NCBI RefSeq assembly: GCF_000420345.1
Contig: NZ_ATUT01000017.1
Location: 1 to 41,138, forward strand
Source: Faecalicoccus pleomorphus DSM 20574
GTDB lineage: Bacteria > Bacillota_I > Bacilli_A > Erysipelotrichales > Erysipelotrichaceae
Direction: 5' to 3'
Length of the DNA: 41,138 nucleotides
Of this stretch, positions 25,355-30,617 are shown in pieces; position 1 is the stretch's first letter, and each line of letters opens with the position of its first letter. The position numbers were made by a program, and so were the translations under genes. The notes under the pieces were generated by a model. That model worked only from the letters and a program-made list of their open reading frames with translations. It had not been told where the DNA came from and did no database searches.

Positions 25355-27013
25355 ATGGATCTTTCTTTAATTTTGAAGCTACTTGGGGGTCTAGCCCTGT
25401 TTTTGTATGGGATGCAGATGATGTCCGATGGTCTGGAAAAAGCAGCCGGTGACCGGTTGAAGACTATCCTGGAAAAGCTGACATCCAATCGTATTCTTGG
25501 TGTTATCGTAGGAGCCTTAATTACGGCAGCTATTCAGTCCAGCAGTGCTACAACCGTTATGGTCATCGGATTTGTCAACGCCCGTTTAATGAGCCTGCAG
25601 CAGGCTGTTTAGATCATCATGGGTGCCAATATCGGTACGACCATCACCGGGCAGCTGGTGGCCCTGAATGTCAGTGAGATTGCACCGCTGATTGCCTTTG
25701 CCGGTGTCGTATTGATTGTTTTTTTGAAGAATCCAAAGCTTCATTATTTTGGGTCGATCATTGCCGGTCTGGGTATTTTGTTTATTGGTATGGATATGAT
25801 GTCTTCGTCCATGAGTCCGCTTAGAGAATCCGAAGCGTTCATTTCATTGTTAACAAACTTCTCCAATCCTGCCATTGGTATCCTGGTAGGCGCTTTATTC
25901 ACAGCTCTCATTCAAAGCTCTTCGGCTTCCTTGGGTATCTTGCAGGCACTGGCCCGGAGTGGTTTGATTGGTTTGGATGGAGCCGTATTCGTATTGTTTG
26001 GTCAAAACATTGGTACGTGTATTACGGCCATTTTGGCATCCTTTGGAACAAGTCGAGAAGCCAAGCAGACAACGATTATTCACTTGAGTTTTAATATCAT
26101 CGGTACGATCATCTTTACTACGGTATGTTTATTGACACCTCTCACTTCGGTTGTGGCCGGATGGTCACCGGATAATGCAGCTCAACAGATTGCCAATATG
26201 CATACGTTGTTTAATGTGGTCACCACCCTGTTATTGTTGCCGTTTGGAACTTATTTAGCAGCTTTTGCCCAGCACGTTCTTCCAAGTGAAAAATTATCGG
26301 TAGATTCAGAAGGATTAATGTATTTGCAGCCTCTACCTAAGAGTAATAAAATCATCGGTTTATCCGCTATCAATATACAACAGGTCAATGATGAAGTCAT
26401 GCGCATGATGAAACTTGCCTATACCAATGTATCGGATGCCTTTGACCAACTGATCAACTACAAGGAAGATCGTTCCAAATCCATTCAGAAGCGGGAAGCA
26501 GCTGTTAACTTCTTAAACAGTGCTATTTCTAAATACATTACCGATGCCTTTGCTTATGGTAACTTAAATCAGGAAACAACCAAAGCTTTAACCGCTTATT
26601 ATACGATGTTGGTGGATATTGAGCGTATCAGTGATTATGCGATCAATATGGACCGGCAAGCTTTGATTATCGCAAAAGAAACGACCAATGAGGCAGAGAA
26701 AACAATTTTGCGAAAGATGAAGAAAAGAACTTTCAAAATGCACGATTTTATCTTCGATCTTAACAAAGCAAACAGCTACAACAATCAGATTGATGAGAAC
26801 ACACAAGAATGGAGAACAGCTCAGATCCAGGGCTTAAAAGACAAGAGCATTTCCAGTGAACTGGGAATTGCCTTCTCCAGAATCTTAACGGATTATGATC
26901 GAATCAATGATCATGCGGTTAATCTGGCTGAAGAAATCGATAAAATTGACAAAGGTTTACTTGAAACAATGATAGAAGAACATGCACTGATTCCAGAAGG
27001 TTCTGTTTCATAA
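25355..27013 (+). pseudogene. Na/Pi cotransporter (NptA/YjbB-like) interrupted by an in-frame TAG
   Basis: A single frame of 553 codons. The N-terminal part has LGGLALFLYGMQMMSDGLEKAAGDRL and the first QSSSATT repeat. After 85 residues comes TAG at 25610-25612. The frame then continues at once with IIMGANIGTTITGQLVAL, the second inverted repeat (QSSSASLGIL, GQNIGTCITAIL) and a C-terminal PhoU-like helical domain. This is the complete architecture and length of the family, which imports phosphate with sodium or exports it. From memory of relatives, the lost residue before IIMGANIGTT is often Trp or Gly, so TGG to TAG is a simple origin. Either the gene is dead or the amber codon is read through; the rest shows no decay, and the promoter is good. 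Confidence 0.85.
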
Positions 27014-27242: not shown

Positions 27243-27659
27243 ATGAAACAAAGTATCATTTCAAGAGTTTTAAAAATTGGTAGTTTAGTGTTATGTGGAC
27301 TCGGTATAGTTGGATCTATTCCATTATCAAACGAAATGCAGTACATTTCTGCAAAATACTCGTTTTCAGATGCAATATATGAAGCTGTTTTCTCACCTGA
27401 AAAATTTTGCACATACGCTTTTAGTGTCATCTTAATTTGTTCATTGATTTACGCTTTCGGTGAATTAATTGAGCATACTTATAACAATTCACAATATCTA
27501 CTGAAACTTATTAATTTAAAAGAAAAGGAATTGGAACCTAAATTGCCTGCAACTCCAAAAAAGAAAGAAAGTGATATCCATGAAAATCGGAGTAAGGAAG
27601 CCAAGTCTGAAAAGATCATTGAAAGCCAGGACAACAGCGAAAGCAAAAAGGCAGATTAA
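27243..27659 (+). CDS. Small membrane protein with a charged tail, 138 residues
   Basis: From the ATG at 27243, with GAGGAGGAAAG directly upstream; an earlier in-frame TTG is inside that site. There are two membrane helices (about 8-25 and 51-70), followed by a highly charged C-terminal tail (KEKELEPKLPATPKKKESDIHENRSKEAKSEKIIES) that is probably disordered and cytoplasmic. I do not recognise a family. The base composition is more AT-rich than the preceding genes. It is the first gene of the relic island beside ssrA, and its end overlaps the next gene by 80 bases in another frame. Confidence 0.6.
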   Translation: MKQSIISRVLKIGSLVLCGLGIVGSIPLSNEMQYISAKYSFSDAIYEAVFSPEKFCTYAFSVILICSLIYAFGELIEHTYNNSQYLLKLINLKEKELEPKLPATPKKKESDIHENRSKEAKSEKIIESQDNSESKKAD

Positions 27660-27780
27660 ACGAGCTTTGATTCCCGGATACGGGAAGAAAGGTATGGGAT
27701 GGATAAAGAATCCTAAAAAAGCAATGTATAACAAGGTTTATAAAAAGACAACGTTTAGTATCTTTGATTTGTTTAAATAA
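27580..27780 (+). CDS. Small basic protein, 66 residues
   Basis: From the ATG at 27580 (MKIGVRKPSLKRSLKARTTAKAKRQIKRALIPGYGKKGMGWIKNPKKAMYNKVYKKTTFSIFDLF in outline). It is strongly basic and has the KARTT...K...PxYGKKGMGWIxNPKKAxYNKxYxKTTF pattern. I recall this pattern as a recurrent short module of Firmicute accessory regions with no assigned function. A GTG at 27571 is an alternative start; the ribosome binding site is weak, and the overlap with the upstream gene suggests coupling. Nucleic-acid or membrane-surface binding is possible given the charge. Confidence 0.6.
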   Translation: MKIGVRKPSLKRSLKARTTAKAKRQIKRALIPGYGKKGMGWIKNPKKAMYNKVYKKTTFSIFDLFK

Positions 27781-27837: not shown

Positions 27838-27942
27838 ATTACATAAAAAACTTCCGTAACAAACTTTTCCTCATCAGGTAGACGTACTCTGCGAAATAAA
27901 ATAAGTTTATTTTGATAGATGTTCATAGAAAGGGATTAATAG

Positions 27943-28302
27943 ATGTTAGTAAAGGTTGGAGAAATTAGTCTAAGGTTAATTCAGCTGTTGGGATTAACGT
28001 GTGCTCCAGGCACGCCAATATTTATGGGACCAAGCAATATAGAACATATGAAGAACAAACATCCTGATGACTTTAATACCTATCATGATCAGATTCCCTC
28101 AATACTAAGTAGTCCGGACTATGTAAGAAAATCATCTGACGGAAGCATTGAATATGTTAAAGAGTTTAGATACAACTCCGAATACGTAAAAGTAGCTGTT
28201 CGCATGTCTGGTGGCTATACGTGGTACCTACGCACCATGTATGTACTTAATACAAATAGAGTCAATAACTATATCCAAAAGGGAACTCTGCTGAAATATT
28301 GA
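27943..28302 (+). CDS. PBECR2-like nuclease-fold protein, 119 residues
   Basis: The core from about residue 24 reads PIFMGPSNIEHMKNKHPDDFNTYHDQIPSILSSPDYV...DGSIEYVKEF...VKVAVRMSGGYTWYLRTMYVLNTNRVNNYIQKGTLLKY. This matches, from memory, the phage-Barnase-EndoU-ColicinE5/D-RelE-like nuclease 2 (PBECR2) pattern: an HxxxKHPxDF helix, xIPxIxxxPDY and a terminal TxYVL...N.I.KG. PBECR domains occur at the ends of phage and polymorphic toxin proteins; here one stands nearly alone. RNase activity is inferred from the fold only. AAAGGG lies ten bases before the ATG. No clear protein antitoxin is adjacent. Confidence 0.65.
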   Translation: MLVKVGEISLRLIQLLGLTCAPGTPIFMGPSNIEHMKNKHPDDFNTYHDQIPSILSSPDYVRKSSDGSIEYVKEFRYNSEYVKVAVRMSGGYTWYLRTMYVLNTNRVNNYIQKGTLLKY

Positions 28303-28327
28303 ATTTTCTTCAATTAAATGTTAATAT
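28299..28327 (+). promoter_or_regulatory. Promoter of a probable small RNA
   Basis: TTGAAT (28299-28304), a 17-base spacer and TAATAT (28322-28327) begin right at the end of the PBECR2-like gene. The predicted start is about 28334. No coding sequence follows within 200 bases. Confidence 0.6.
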
Positions 28328-28333
28328 ACTACT

Positions 28334-28467
28334 GCAACAAGGTTAATACAAGAATGCTGAGGGCGGAACAGGCAGCCGCCACCCATTGTTAGGAGATGTA
28401 GGAATCGTCACCCTACCTCATTCTTGTTTCAACAAAGCACTAGTTCAGAAATGGGTTAGTGCTTTTT
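28334..28467 (+). ncRNA. Probable free-standing structured RNA, about 134 nt
   Basis: ACAAGAATG (28348-28356) is perfectly complementary to CATTCTTGT (28419-28427), closing a multibranch domain. Inside it are a GC-rich hairpin, GGCGG (28362-28366) with CCGCC (28376-28380), and a second hairpin, GTAGG with CCTAC (28398-28402 and 28412-28416). A terminator follows. Local GC content is far above the flanking sequence. I cannot match it to SRP RNA, 6S RNA, RNase P, tmRNA or a known riboswitch. It lies between the PBECR2-like gene and the integrase relic; regulation of either is speculation. Confidence 0.6.
28434..28467 (+). terminator. Terminator of the small RNA
   Basis: AAAGCACTA (28434-28442) pairs perfectly with TAGTGCTTT (28457-28465) across a 14-base loop and runs into TTTTT. 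Confidence 0.8.
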
Positions 28468-28534
28468 GCTTTATTAAAGGAGTAAACAAAAAAAACACTA
28501 ACTAAGGTGTTCTTCACAATAGAAGGTACATACC

Positions 28535-29674
28535 TTGTTGTCAGTGTTCAAAGATGGAAATTCATGGGCTTATAAAGGAAAGATTGCTGTTCCTTTTGAA
28601 CCTGGAAAATATAAAAGTTATTACAAAAAGGGATTTTCTAAAAAGAAAGATGCTCAAAGAGCAGAACAATTGTTTAGAGATAACTTTTCTACACACCAAA
28701 AAGATATCACCTTCGATGAATTAGTAAATCTATATCGTGCCAACTATCGGACACAGAATGTAAAAGAATCAACTTTAATTGGTGATAAAAGCCATTATAG
28801 ATTGCATATTCAGCCAGTATTAGGCAAATATCCATTATAAGTCAAGTTACTTCGCAAGCGATTGATTTATGGAAATCCTATATGATCAAAAAGCCTAAAA
28901 CAGAAAGAAAAAAGAATAAAAATGAATATTATTCTGCCACTACAATAAATCATGCTAAAAGCGTAATTAGTAAATACTTATCATATGCGGTAAGGCTCGG
29001 TTACATATCTTATAACCCTTGTCATAATGTACCAAGTTATCAAAATAGAGAAGAACTTAAAGAAAGACAAGAAATAAAATTCTGGGAAGTCAACGAGTTT
29101 AAAACATTTATAGCATCTGTACATGAAAAACGCTGGAACGATATTTTTACATTTCTATTCTTTACAGGATTACGTGAATCAGAAATGTTTGCTTTGTCAT
29201 GGAGAGATATCGATTTTCAAAAATGCACTTTGAGAATCAATAAGTCTATTGCGTATAAGACAAAAGTATCTCCCTGGAAAATAACGACACCTAAGAATGA
29301 AAACTCCATTAGGATTATTGATTTTGCAGAATACTTTATTAGATCGATTTAAAAATCGTTTAGAAAAAGAAAAACATAAAGACGGATTCACGCTTGATTA
29401 TTTTATATTTGGAGATATCAAACCCGTGTCTCGATCTGACTTGGCGCGTAAAATGGATTATTTCATACGGTTATCAGGGGTTTCACGAATCACACCCCAC
29501 GGTCTTCGTCATAGTCACGCTTCCTTTTTGATCAAAAGCAAAATTGACGATTCTTTGATTGCTGAAAGATTAGAACATACAGTGCAAAGCTAAGAGAAAC
29601 ATATGCACATATATATATGATTCTATGAGACAAGACATGAAAAAATATTAGATGAAACATGTAAAATTGAATAA
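28535..29674 (+). pseudogene. Tyrosine-recombinase integrase, multiply frameshifted
   Basis: Fragments of one integrase lie in successive frames. 28535-28840 is the AP2-like arm-binding part (SWAYKGKIAVPFEPGKYKSYYKKGFSKKKDAQRAEQLF) and the start of the SAM-like domain. The shifted frame at about 28842 continues SQVTSQAIDLWKSY. 28882-29352 has the catalytic-domain start with the first arginine (FTGLRESEMFALSWRDIDF). 29297-29593 has HGLRHSHASFLI (His-x-x-Arg), and a last shift restores RETYAHIY with the nucleophile tyrosine. At least three frameshifts make it inactive. It reads toward the 3' end of ssrA, the classic attachment site of such integrases. A matching second att copy was not seen. 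Confidence 0.85.
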
Positions 29675-29754: not shown

Positions 29755-30144
29755 TGGTGGAGATGAGGAGAGTCGAACTCCTGTCTAAGCAAAGTCCCAC
29801 GATACAACGTTTACAGCTTTTCTTATCAAAATAATCCTAAGCTTTGGATAAGAACAAAGATCTTAAGATGTGATCCTAAAATTTTCGTATGAAGTATCGG
29901 ACCGCTACTTCATCTTATCTTCTTTATGTGTCCTGCAATAGCTAATAAGAAAGCGAACCTAGACTATTGGGGCTGCAAGCCAAACGTAGGCAATTAAATT
30001 AGGCAGCGAAAGCCATGCTCTGGTTTACACCAAAAACATTAGCAAGTTTAGTTTTAGCAATTAATTTTAAGTGGTTTTTACACGTGTCCTTCGTGGCTGT
30101 GGTCCTATCCAGACATTTACTCATCGAATACCATAAACATCCCC
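29755..30144 (-). ncRNA. ssrA: tmRNA
   Basis: 390-nt transfer-messenger RNA that rescues stalled ribosomes together with SmpB. The 5' end GGGGATG pairs with CATCTCC near the 3' end, which carries the T-arm GGAGTTCGACTCTCC and an encoded CCA (29755-29757). The tag frame runs from GCT (30058-30056) to TAA at 29999, giving AKTKLANVFGVNQSMAFAA. At 19 residues this is longer than the 15-residue B. subtilis tag but keeps a hydrophobic-Ala-Ala end for proteolysis. smpB lies directly upstream on the same strand. The 3' end abuts an integrase relic. Confidence 0.96.
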
Positions 30145-30164: not shown

Positions 30165-30617
30165 CTAATAATCGTTCTTCAAGGCCTTCTGTATTTCTTT
30201 TTGCGCATCCTTTTTCTTCTGTGCTTCTCGTTTATCATGCAGATTTTTACCCTTAGCCAGAGCAATCTCTAATTTCGCCAAGCCTTTACTTAAATAGAGT
30301 CGTGTAGGTACTACTGTATAACCTTTTATACGTGCCGACTGCTCCAACTTTAAAATCTCTTTTTTGTGCAATAAAAGTTTTCTATCCCTGGTTTCCTCAT
30401 GGTTAAATATATTTCCATGCTCATACGGTGCAATATGCATTCCCTTGATATAAGCCTCGTTACCATAAAAACTAATATAAGAGTCTTTTAACTGTACCTT
30501 TCCTTTTCGAATACTTTTGATTTCCGTTCCCTTTAAACAAAGACCAGCTTCAAATCGATCATACAACTCATACTCATGACGTGCTTTACGATTTTCCGCA
30601 ACTAATTTCTGGTTCAT
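30165..30617 (-). CDS. smpB: SsrA-binding protein
   Basis: 150 residues of the SmpB OB-fold (NQKLVAENRKARHEYELYDRFEAGLCLKGTEIKSIRKGKVQLKDSYISFYGNEAYIKGMHIAPYE) with a basic, helical C-terminal tail (KGKNLHDKREAQKKKDAQKEIQKALKNDY) that mimics an mRNA and anticodon stem in the ribosome. It binds tmRNA, whose gene follows 20 bases downstream. Its ATG overlaps the TAA of the upstream CapA-like gene (TAATG). It ends with TAG. Confidence 0.97.
   Translation of the reverse strand: MNQKLVAENRKARHEYELYDRFEAGLCLKGTEIKSIRKGKVQLKDSYISFYGNEAYIKGMHIAPYEHGNIFNHEETRDRKLLLHKKEILKLEQSARIKGYTVVPTRLYLSKGLAKLEIALAKGKNLHDKREAQKKKDAQKEIQKALKNDY

Follow-up and report, generated by a model that had tools for sequence, protein, structure and literature searches.

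A nuclease gene and a small RNA beside a broken integrase

The window analysed here is a 41,138-nucleotide contig of Faecalicoccus pleomorphus DSM 20574, in which a 119-aa gene (27943..28302, + strand) encoding a solo PBECR3/PBECR2 nuclease of the BECR fold, a candidate toxin, is followed after 48 nt by the Rfam-matched core of a small structured RNA. The original prediction for this locus described an RNA of about 134 nt at 28299-28467 and made no mention of the gene just upstream, which proves to be the informative part. Downstream of the RNA lies an integrase gene broken into three ORFs (28535..29593, + strand), with Phage_int_SAM_3 and Phage_integrase domains in successive ORFs, which is a remnant of the carrier element. 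This remnant is faced by the 3' end of the tmRNA gene ssrA (29755..30144, - strand), which was found by Infernal (RF00023, 78.7 bits) and missed by ARAGORN, and which is adjoined in turn by smpB (30165-30617, - strand). The 3' end of ssrA is the likely attachment site of the carrier element, and a search of the window for a second att copy or a duplication of the site found none. As the nuclease-RNA module precedes a broken integrase facing the ssrA 3' end, it resembles the margin of a prophage or island of which the rest has decayed.

Two further features lie upstream. Immediately before the nuclease gene, a very basic 66-aa ORF (27580-27780, + strand; MKIGVRKPSLKRSLKARTTAKAKRQ...) resembles a small phage protein and is possibly another prophage remnant, while a Na/Pi cotransporter gene with a PhoU domain (25355-27013, + strand) is split into two ORFs, 25355-25612 and 25619-27013, and is probably either broken or affected by a sequencing error.

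The RNA is a member of the skipping-rope family

Positions 28351-28424 (+ strand) match the Rfam skipping-rope family, RF02924, from end to end (model positions 1-80 of 80) with a score of 56.2 bits against a gathering cut-off of 36.7 bits, and with an E value of 6e-11 in a search of the whole window; it is the only skipping-rope copy in the F. pleomorphus genome. The original prediction was right to propose a discrete structured small RNA with its own terminator, for which homology and covariation now provide backing, but its statement that the RNA matches no class known to its author fails against current databases, the claim of novelty being refuted by a hit to a known family, an outcome that it had itself named as decisive. 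Judged by sequence homology, the structured RNA is real and is a copy of a known family.

The RNA domain (28348..28427, + strand) consists of a closing helix, two hairpins with kissing loops and a conserved GAGATG motif. The closing helix is a perfect 9 bp, formed by ACAAGAATG (28348-28356) and CATTCTTGT (28419-28427), coordinates that were checked on the sequence. Hairpin 1 (28362..28380, + strand) and hairpin 3 (28398..28416, + strand) each have 5 bp and a 9-nt loop, AACAGGCAG and AATCGTCAC, respectively, and GGC in the loop of the former can pair with GTC in that of the latter. A Rho-independent terminator with a 9-bp outer stem, AAAGCACTA/TAGTGCTTT, follows at 28434..28465 (+ strand), where an independent terminator scan agrees. 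Closing helix, inner hairpins and terminator are thus all present as first described. The proposed promoter fares less well: a -35/-10 pair does exist with the expected spacing (TTGAAT-17-TAATAT, 28299..28327, + strand), but this weak sigma-A-like element matches at only 8 of 12 positions, a score reached by 59% of shuffled upstream regions, and it is absent from the list returned by a promoter scan at a 9/12 threshold.

The window copy has the helices and the loop-loop pseudoknot of RF02924, with no departure from the family, for which the pseudoknot has already been shown in Rfam 14 (PMC7779021). Single-sequence folding is unremarkable (z -1.67 for 151 nt and -0.95 for the 80-nt core), so that folding energy alone is a weak argument, and it is homology, covariation and the promoters and terminators found across the family that place the window RNA beyond chance. 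Covariation, for which the original prediction had proposed to search, is strong. In a MAFFT alignment of 31 relatives the structure pairs in 79.7% of cells and gives a covariation score of 0.395, compared with 0.229 in shuffles, none of 500 of which reach the observed value, and with at most 0.226 for slid structures. A purely chance structure is excluded by the Rfam score and this covariation. In the same alignment the loop-loop pseudoknot itself is paired in 92% of cells, two of its three pairs have changed on both sides, and the loop combinations include GGC x GUC (the window), GGU x GCC, GAU x AUC, GUG x CAC and CUAUC x GAUAG. A permutation of loop pairing across the seven loop classes is borderline (0.06), and shuffles on 62 loop pairs carry little information, as the DNA patterns by which most of these were gathered already prescribe GG in loop 1.

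Like many other structured RNAs, skipping-rope has been catalogued with no function assigned to it, and a recurrent protein partner makes it the subject of a concrete hypothesis that is cheap to test. The papers covered by our literature search gave neither a function nor a protein partner for the family and no link with PBECR, although the founding paper (gkx699) may contain an earlier remark.

The neighbouring gene encodes a predicted BECR-fold ribonuclease

The product of the upstream gene is recognized by two Pfam families, PF18812 (86.4 bits, cut-off 30) and PF18810 (42.1 bits, cut-off 27.1). It belongs to the same domain family as the PBECR2/PBECR3 proteins described by Iyer et al. in 2017 (PMC5512222), who reported solo forms in phages and mobile elements and predicted RNase activity for them; in the passages of that paper that we covered, the term 'RNA antitoxin' is absent and no RNA partner is described. 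NCBIfam and PADLOC leave the protein unnamed, PHROGs assigns it only to a family of unknown function, the nuclease profile had no match among PDB sequences and viral scans from single proteins recovered few relatives.

The AlphaFold2 model, built from an alignment of 70 homologues from which proteins in plasmid records were left out, has a mean pLDDT of 96.8, and its best Foldseek match is the ribonuclease toxin BrnT (probability 0.99, E 0.027). VIA-align likewise placed BrnT at the top together with 7vd7 (both Z 6.7), aligned the tRNase domain of colicin D over 83 residues (Z 6.7, rmsd 2.8, model residues 2-117), and gave contact-dependent inhibition toxins and then the RelE, HigB and YoeB toxins in further rows. 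Although each of these Z values is modest, the top rows all fall in one fold class, which is the class predicted for PBECR in the covered part of Iyer et al. (PMC5512222), and the model thus indicates that the nuclease has the fold of the BECR RNases. The conserved His and Ser/Thr residues expected with this fold are present as well. Of 81 RNA-linked proteins, 75 have H35 and 58 have H40, either of which may be the catalytic histidine, and 64 have R97, followed by T/S.

The RNA and the nuclease recur as a pair

To count the pairing from the RNA side, we assembled 183 distinct skipping-rope copies from viral contigs and named genomes, using DNA patterns for the RNA alone together with genome hits and no information from the protein, and verified pattern-found copies by a covariance model built from 31 copies. 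The nuclease gene is adjacent in 85 of the 183, a fraction that applies mainly to the one loop class favoured by the patterns; 76 copies lack it although 600 nt or more of flank is available, and a further 22 lie too near an end. No other single partner of the RNA comes close to it in frequency, integrases and repressors being next. In the linked loci the RNA usually lies 3' of the nuclease gene and in the same orientation (71 of 85, with a median of 49 nt from the stop codon), the remainder being 10 convergent arrangements and four with the RNA 5'. Sigma-A-like promoters scoring at least 10/12 precede 55% of RNA copies compared with 4.5% of shuffles. A terminator is present after 75 of 91 copies linked to the nuclease and after 52 of 95 that are unlinked, compared with 2.4% of shuffles. 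Distances between RNAs and between proteins are correlated (Mantel r 0.65, permutation maximum 0.28), also for pairs below 50% protein identity (r 0.52), a correlated divergence of which joint transfer alone could explain some or all.

The pairing is also apparent when counted from the protein. A PF18810 search over 97 relatives gave matches in four genomes, and in all four places the gene lies within a few hundred bases of an independently found skipping-rope copy. Of the seven short PBECR3 genes in 392 genomes, five adjoin the RNA (in G000, G013, G035, G326 and G330; Fisher p 2e-7 by genome), while PBECR3 domains embedded in three giant proteins are without an adjacent RNA, so that such large polyvalent proteins differ in this respect from the solo nuclease of the window. 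Searches of plasmids with tblastn returned records from Bacillus subtilis (pTA1060), B. velezensis, Planococcus, Fusobacterium, Priestia and Brevibacillus, and all nine plasmid loci that were fetched carry RF02924 beside the nuclease gene. In Streptococcus suis prophages the nuclease, annotated as 'spbA protein', comes last, behind the lysin gene, and its stop codon is separated from the RNA by about 19 nt; every Streptococcus prophage locus counted, namely those with enough flank, carries the RNA.

An HMM of the linked proteins gives RNA-linked cases 48-150 bits, whereas of the three short proteins without the RNA, G227 scores 42.6, G367 scores 25.8 and G069 falls below the listing limit, a split which argues that the RNA goes with one nuclease subfamily. 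The high-scoring intact solo nucleases that were reached with enough flank all have the RNA. At several loci the RNA is intact and the nuclease gene next to it broken, which speaks for the pair proposed below; against this, several of the fragments may stem from faulty assembly and not from genuine disruption. An uncharacterized gene of about 300 codons immediately precedes PBECR2, in the same orientation, both on pTA1060 (L142 2996-3913) and on the Planococcus plasmid (L144 5497-6399), and has no NCBIfam or PADLOC family above cut-off.

A candidate toxin-antitoxin-like module

The skipping-rope RNA has a defined family and fold, it recurs, on plasmids, in prophages and on chromosomes, beside one nuclease subfamily with which its divergence is correlated, and the nuclease has the fold of an RNase. 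We propose, with a probability of about 0.6, that the two form a toxin-antitoxin-like pair of mobile elements, with the BECR RNase bound and held in check by the RNA. The module would comprise a small BECR-fold endoribonuclease, as candidate toxin, and a skipping-rope RNA with its own promoter and terminator. The several gene orders, the promoters belonging to the RNA and the lack of antisense complementarity at the start region of the nuclease mRNA all point to a trans-acting RNA aimed at the protein, and, by analogy with known RNA antitoxins, the RNA with its two kissing hairpins would most likely bind the nuclease directly and hold it inactive. We infer toxicity, a trigger and a target along the same lines: loss of the element or takeover by a phage would cause the RNA to fall and so free the nuclease, which would then cut cellular RNA, perhaps tRNA, and stop growth. 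tRNA is a reasonable guess given the colicin D-like structure and the phage copies of the RNA that lie within tRNA arrays.

Several known systems offer a guide to how such a pair might operate. The type III systems ToxIN, CptIN and TenpIN (PMC5086642) likewise combine a predicted endoribonuclease with a pseudoknotted RNA and a Rho-independent terminator on mobile elements. They differ in their nuclease family, that of the window having the BECR fold, and in their RNA, which is made of short tandem repeats, whereas here there is one 80-nt domain, with two or three copies at a few loci and no tandem repeats in 27900-28560 of the window. In addition, the type III RNA lies upstream of the toxin with the terminator between them, whereas here it lies downstream in the window and in the 71 loci described above, and the family has promoters of its own; the RNA-first order usual in type III is rare, which counts against the proposed pair. 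By analogy, then, the pair may work like type III while standing outside these three families. A prophage-borne toxin is also countered by a non-coding RNA in AbiF-RCd22 (PMC12373285), where the RNA bears another conserved Rfam motif and neutralizes the toxin by direct binding. There, however, the toxin is an Abi_2 protein and the RNA carries the RF03085 motif, lies upstream and is co-transcribed, whereas the neighbour in the window is a PBECR protein and no RF03085 match was found in the window.

A small RNA beside a toxin-like gene also recalls type I systems, in which the RNA would base-pair with the nuclease mRNA, and the ten convergent arrangements could overlap at their 3' ends. We consider such antisense control very improbable, since each RNA pairs no better with the start region of its own nuclease mRNA than with those of other loci (over 89 pairs the fractional rank averages 0.48, and it is 0.72 for the window), and the usual order, downstream on the same strand, leaves no antisense overlap; the cognate advantage expected of type I and any signal of antisense control are both missing at the start region examined. 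Control of integration, lysogeny or a similar element function by the RNA, with the nuclease as only a frequent neighbour in the cargo region, would account for the integrase remnant beside the RNA in the window and for the integrases and repressors that are commonest beside nuclease-less copies. It seems improbable all the same, as the pairing recurs on small plasmids that show no integrase in the parts examined, apart from a recombinase gene on one Fusobacterium plasmid, is maintained within tens of nucleotides in several gene orders, and phages exist that have the RNA and no integrase nearby.

A further possibility, which we rate as unlikely though less so than either of these, is that the RNA is a general counter-measure of mobile elements that inhibits RNases of the host or of rivals or acts as a decoy for them, used for self-protection by elements that bear the nuclease and carried alone by phages to survive hosts that bear it. 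Roughly half of all RNA copies are without the nuclease, among them those of Lactococcus 949-group and Brevibacillus Jenst-type phages, which carry the RNA alone in or beside tRNA genes, and two copies sit behind PemK/MazF-like genes; set against this is the standing of the nuclease as the commonest single partner. Such a role overlaps with the proposed toxin-antitoxin-like pair and may be its other half. We tentatively suggest, at somewhat less than even odds, that skipping-rope is the antitoxin of an unrecognized RNA-protein toxin-antitoxin family centred on a BECR-fold RNase and that the orphan copies of phages and other elements are stolen antidotes which disarm the nuclease during infection. 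If true, toxin systems with an RNA antidote would extend to the fold common to RelE, colicin D and the contact-dependent inhibition toxins, and for phages with the bare RNA it would serve as an anti-defence RNA.

RNA copies without the nuclease

The main uncertainty concerns the 76 nuclease-less copies, which may be antidotes without a toxin or may reflect an RNA that serves several RNases; two of them (L225 and L202) follow PemK/MazF-like genes, and the group weighs against the proposed pair in that the RNA may have other partners. A single replacement partner was sought by neighbour clustering and by Pfam and PADLOC tallies, which yielded integrases, repressors and scattered proteins and, beyond the two PemK-like genes and one Abi_2 locus, no one family common to these copies. 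In the large Lactococcus and Brevibacillus phages, where no nuclease accompanies the RNA in the stretches read, bare copies lie within or beside tRNA arrays at L141 3996-4074 and L361 2994-3071.

Some loci hold more than one RNA. At L230, L205, L228, L126, L284, L303, L309 and L269, a stretch of about 1.2 kb holds two or three skipping-rope copies, often spaced by about 100 nt, and such clusters recall the repeats that make up the RNA antitoxins of type III systems. At L168 (G326:C4, 8099-12977), four copies of two loop classes occur within 5 kb, in the company of a broken PBECR gene, an uncharacterized 208-aa protein that looks MazF-like by eye and a RelBE-like pair. Finally, the copy behind the PemK-like gene at L202 is preceded, about 1 kb upstream, by two copies of another orphan small-RNA family, drum (RF02958; 5703-5981 and 6313-6915), and orphan small RNAs may cluster in islands of this kind.
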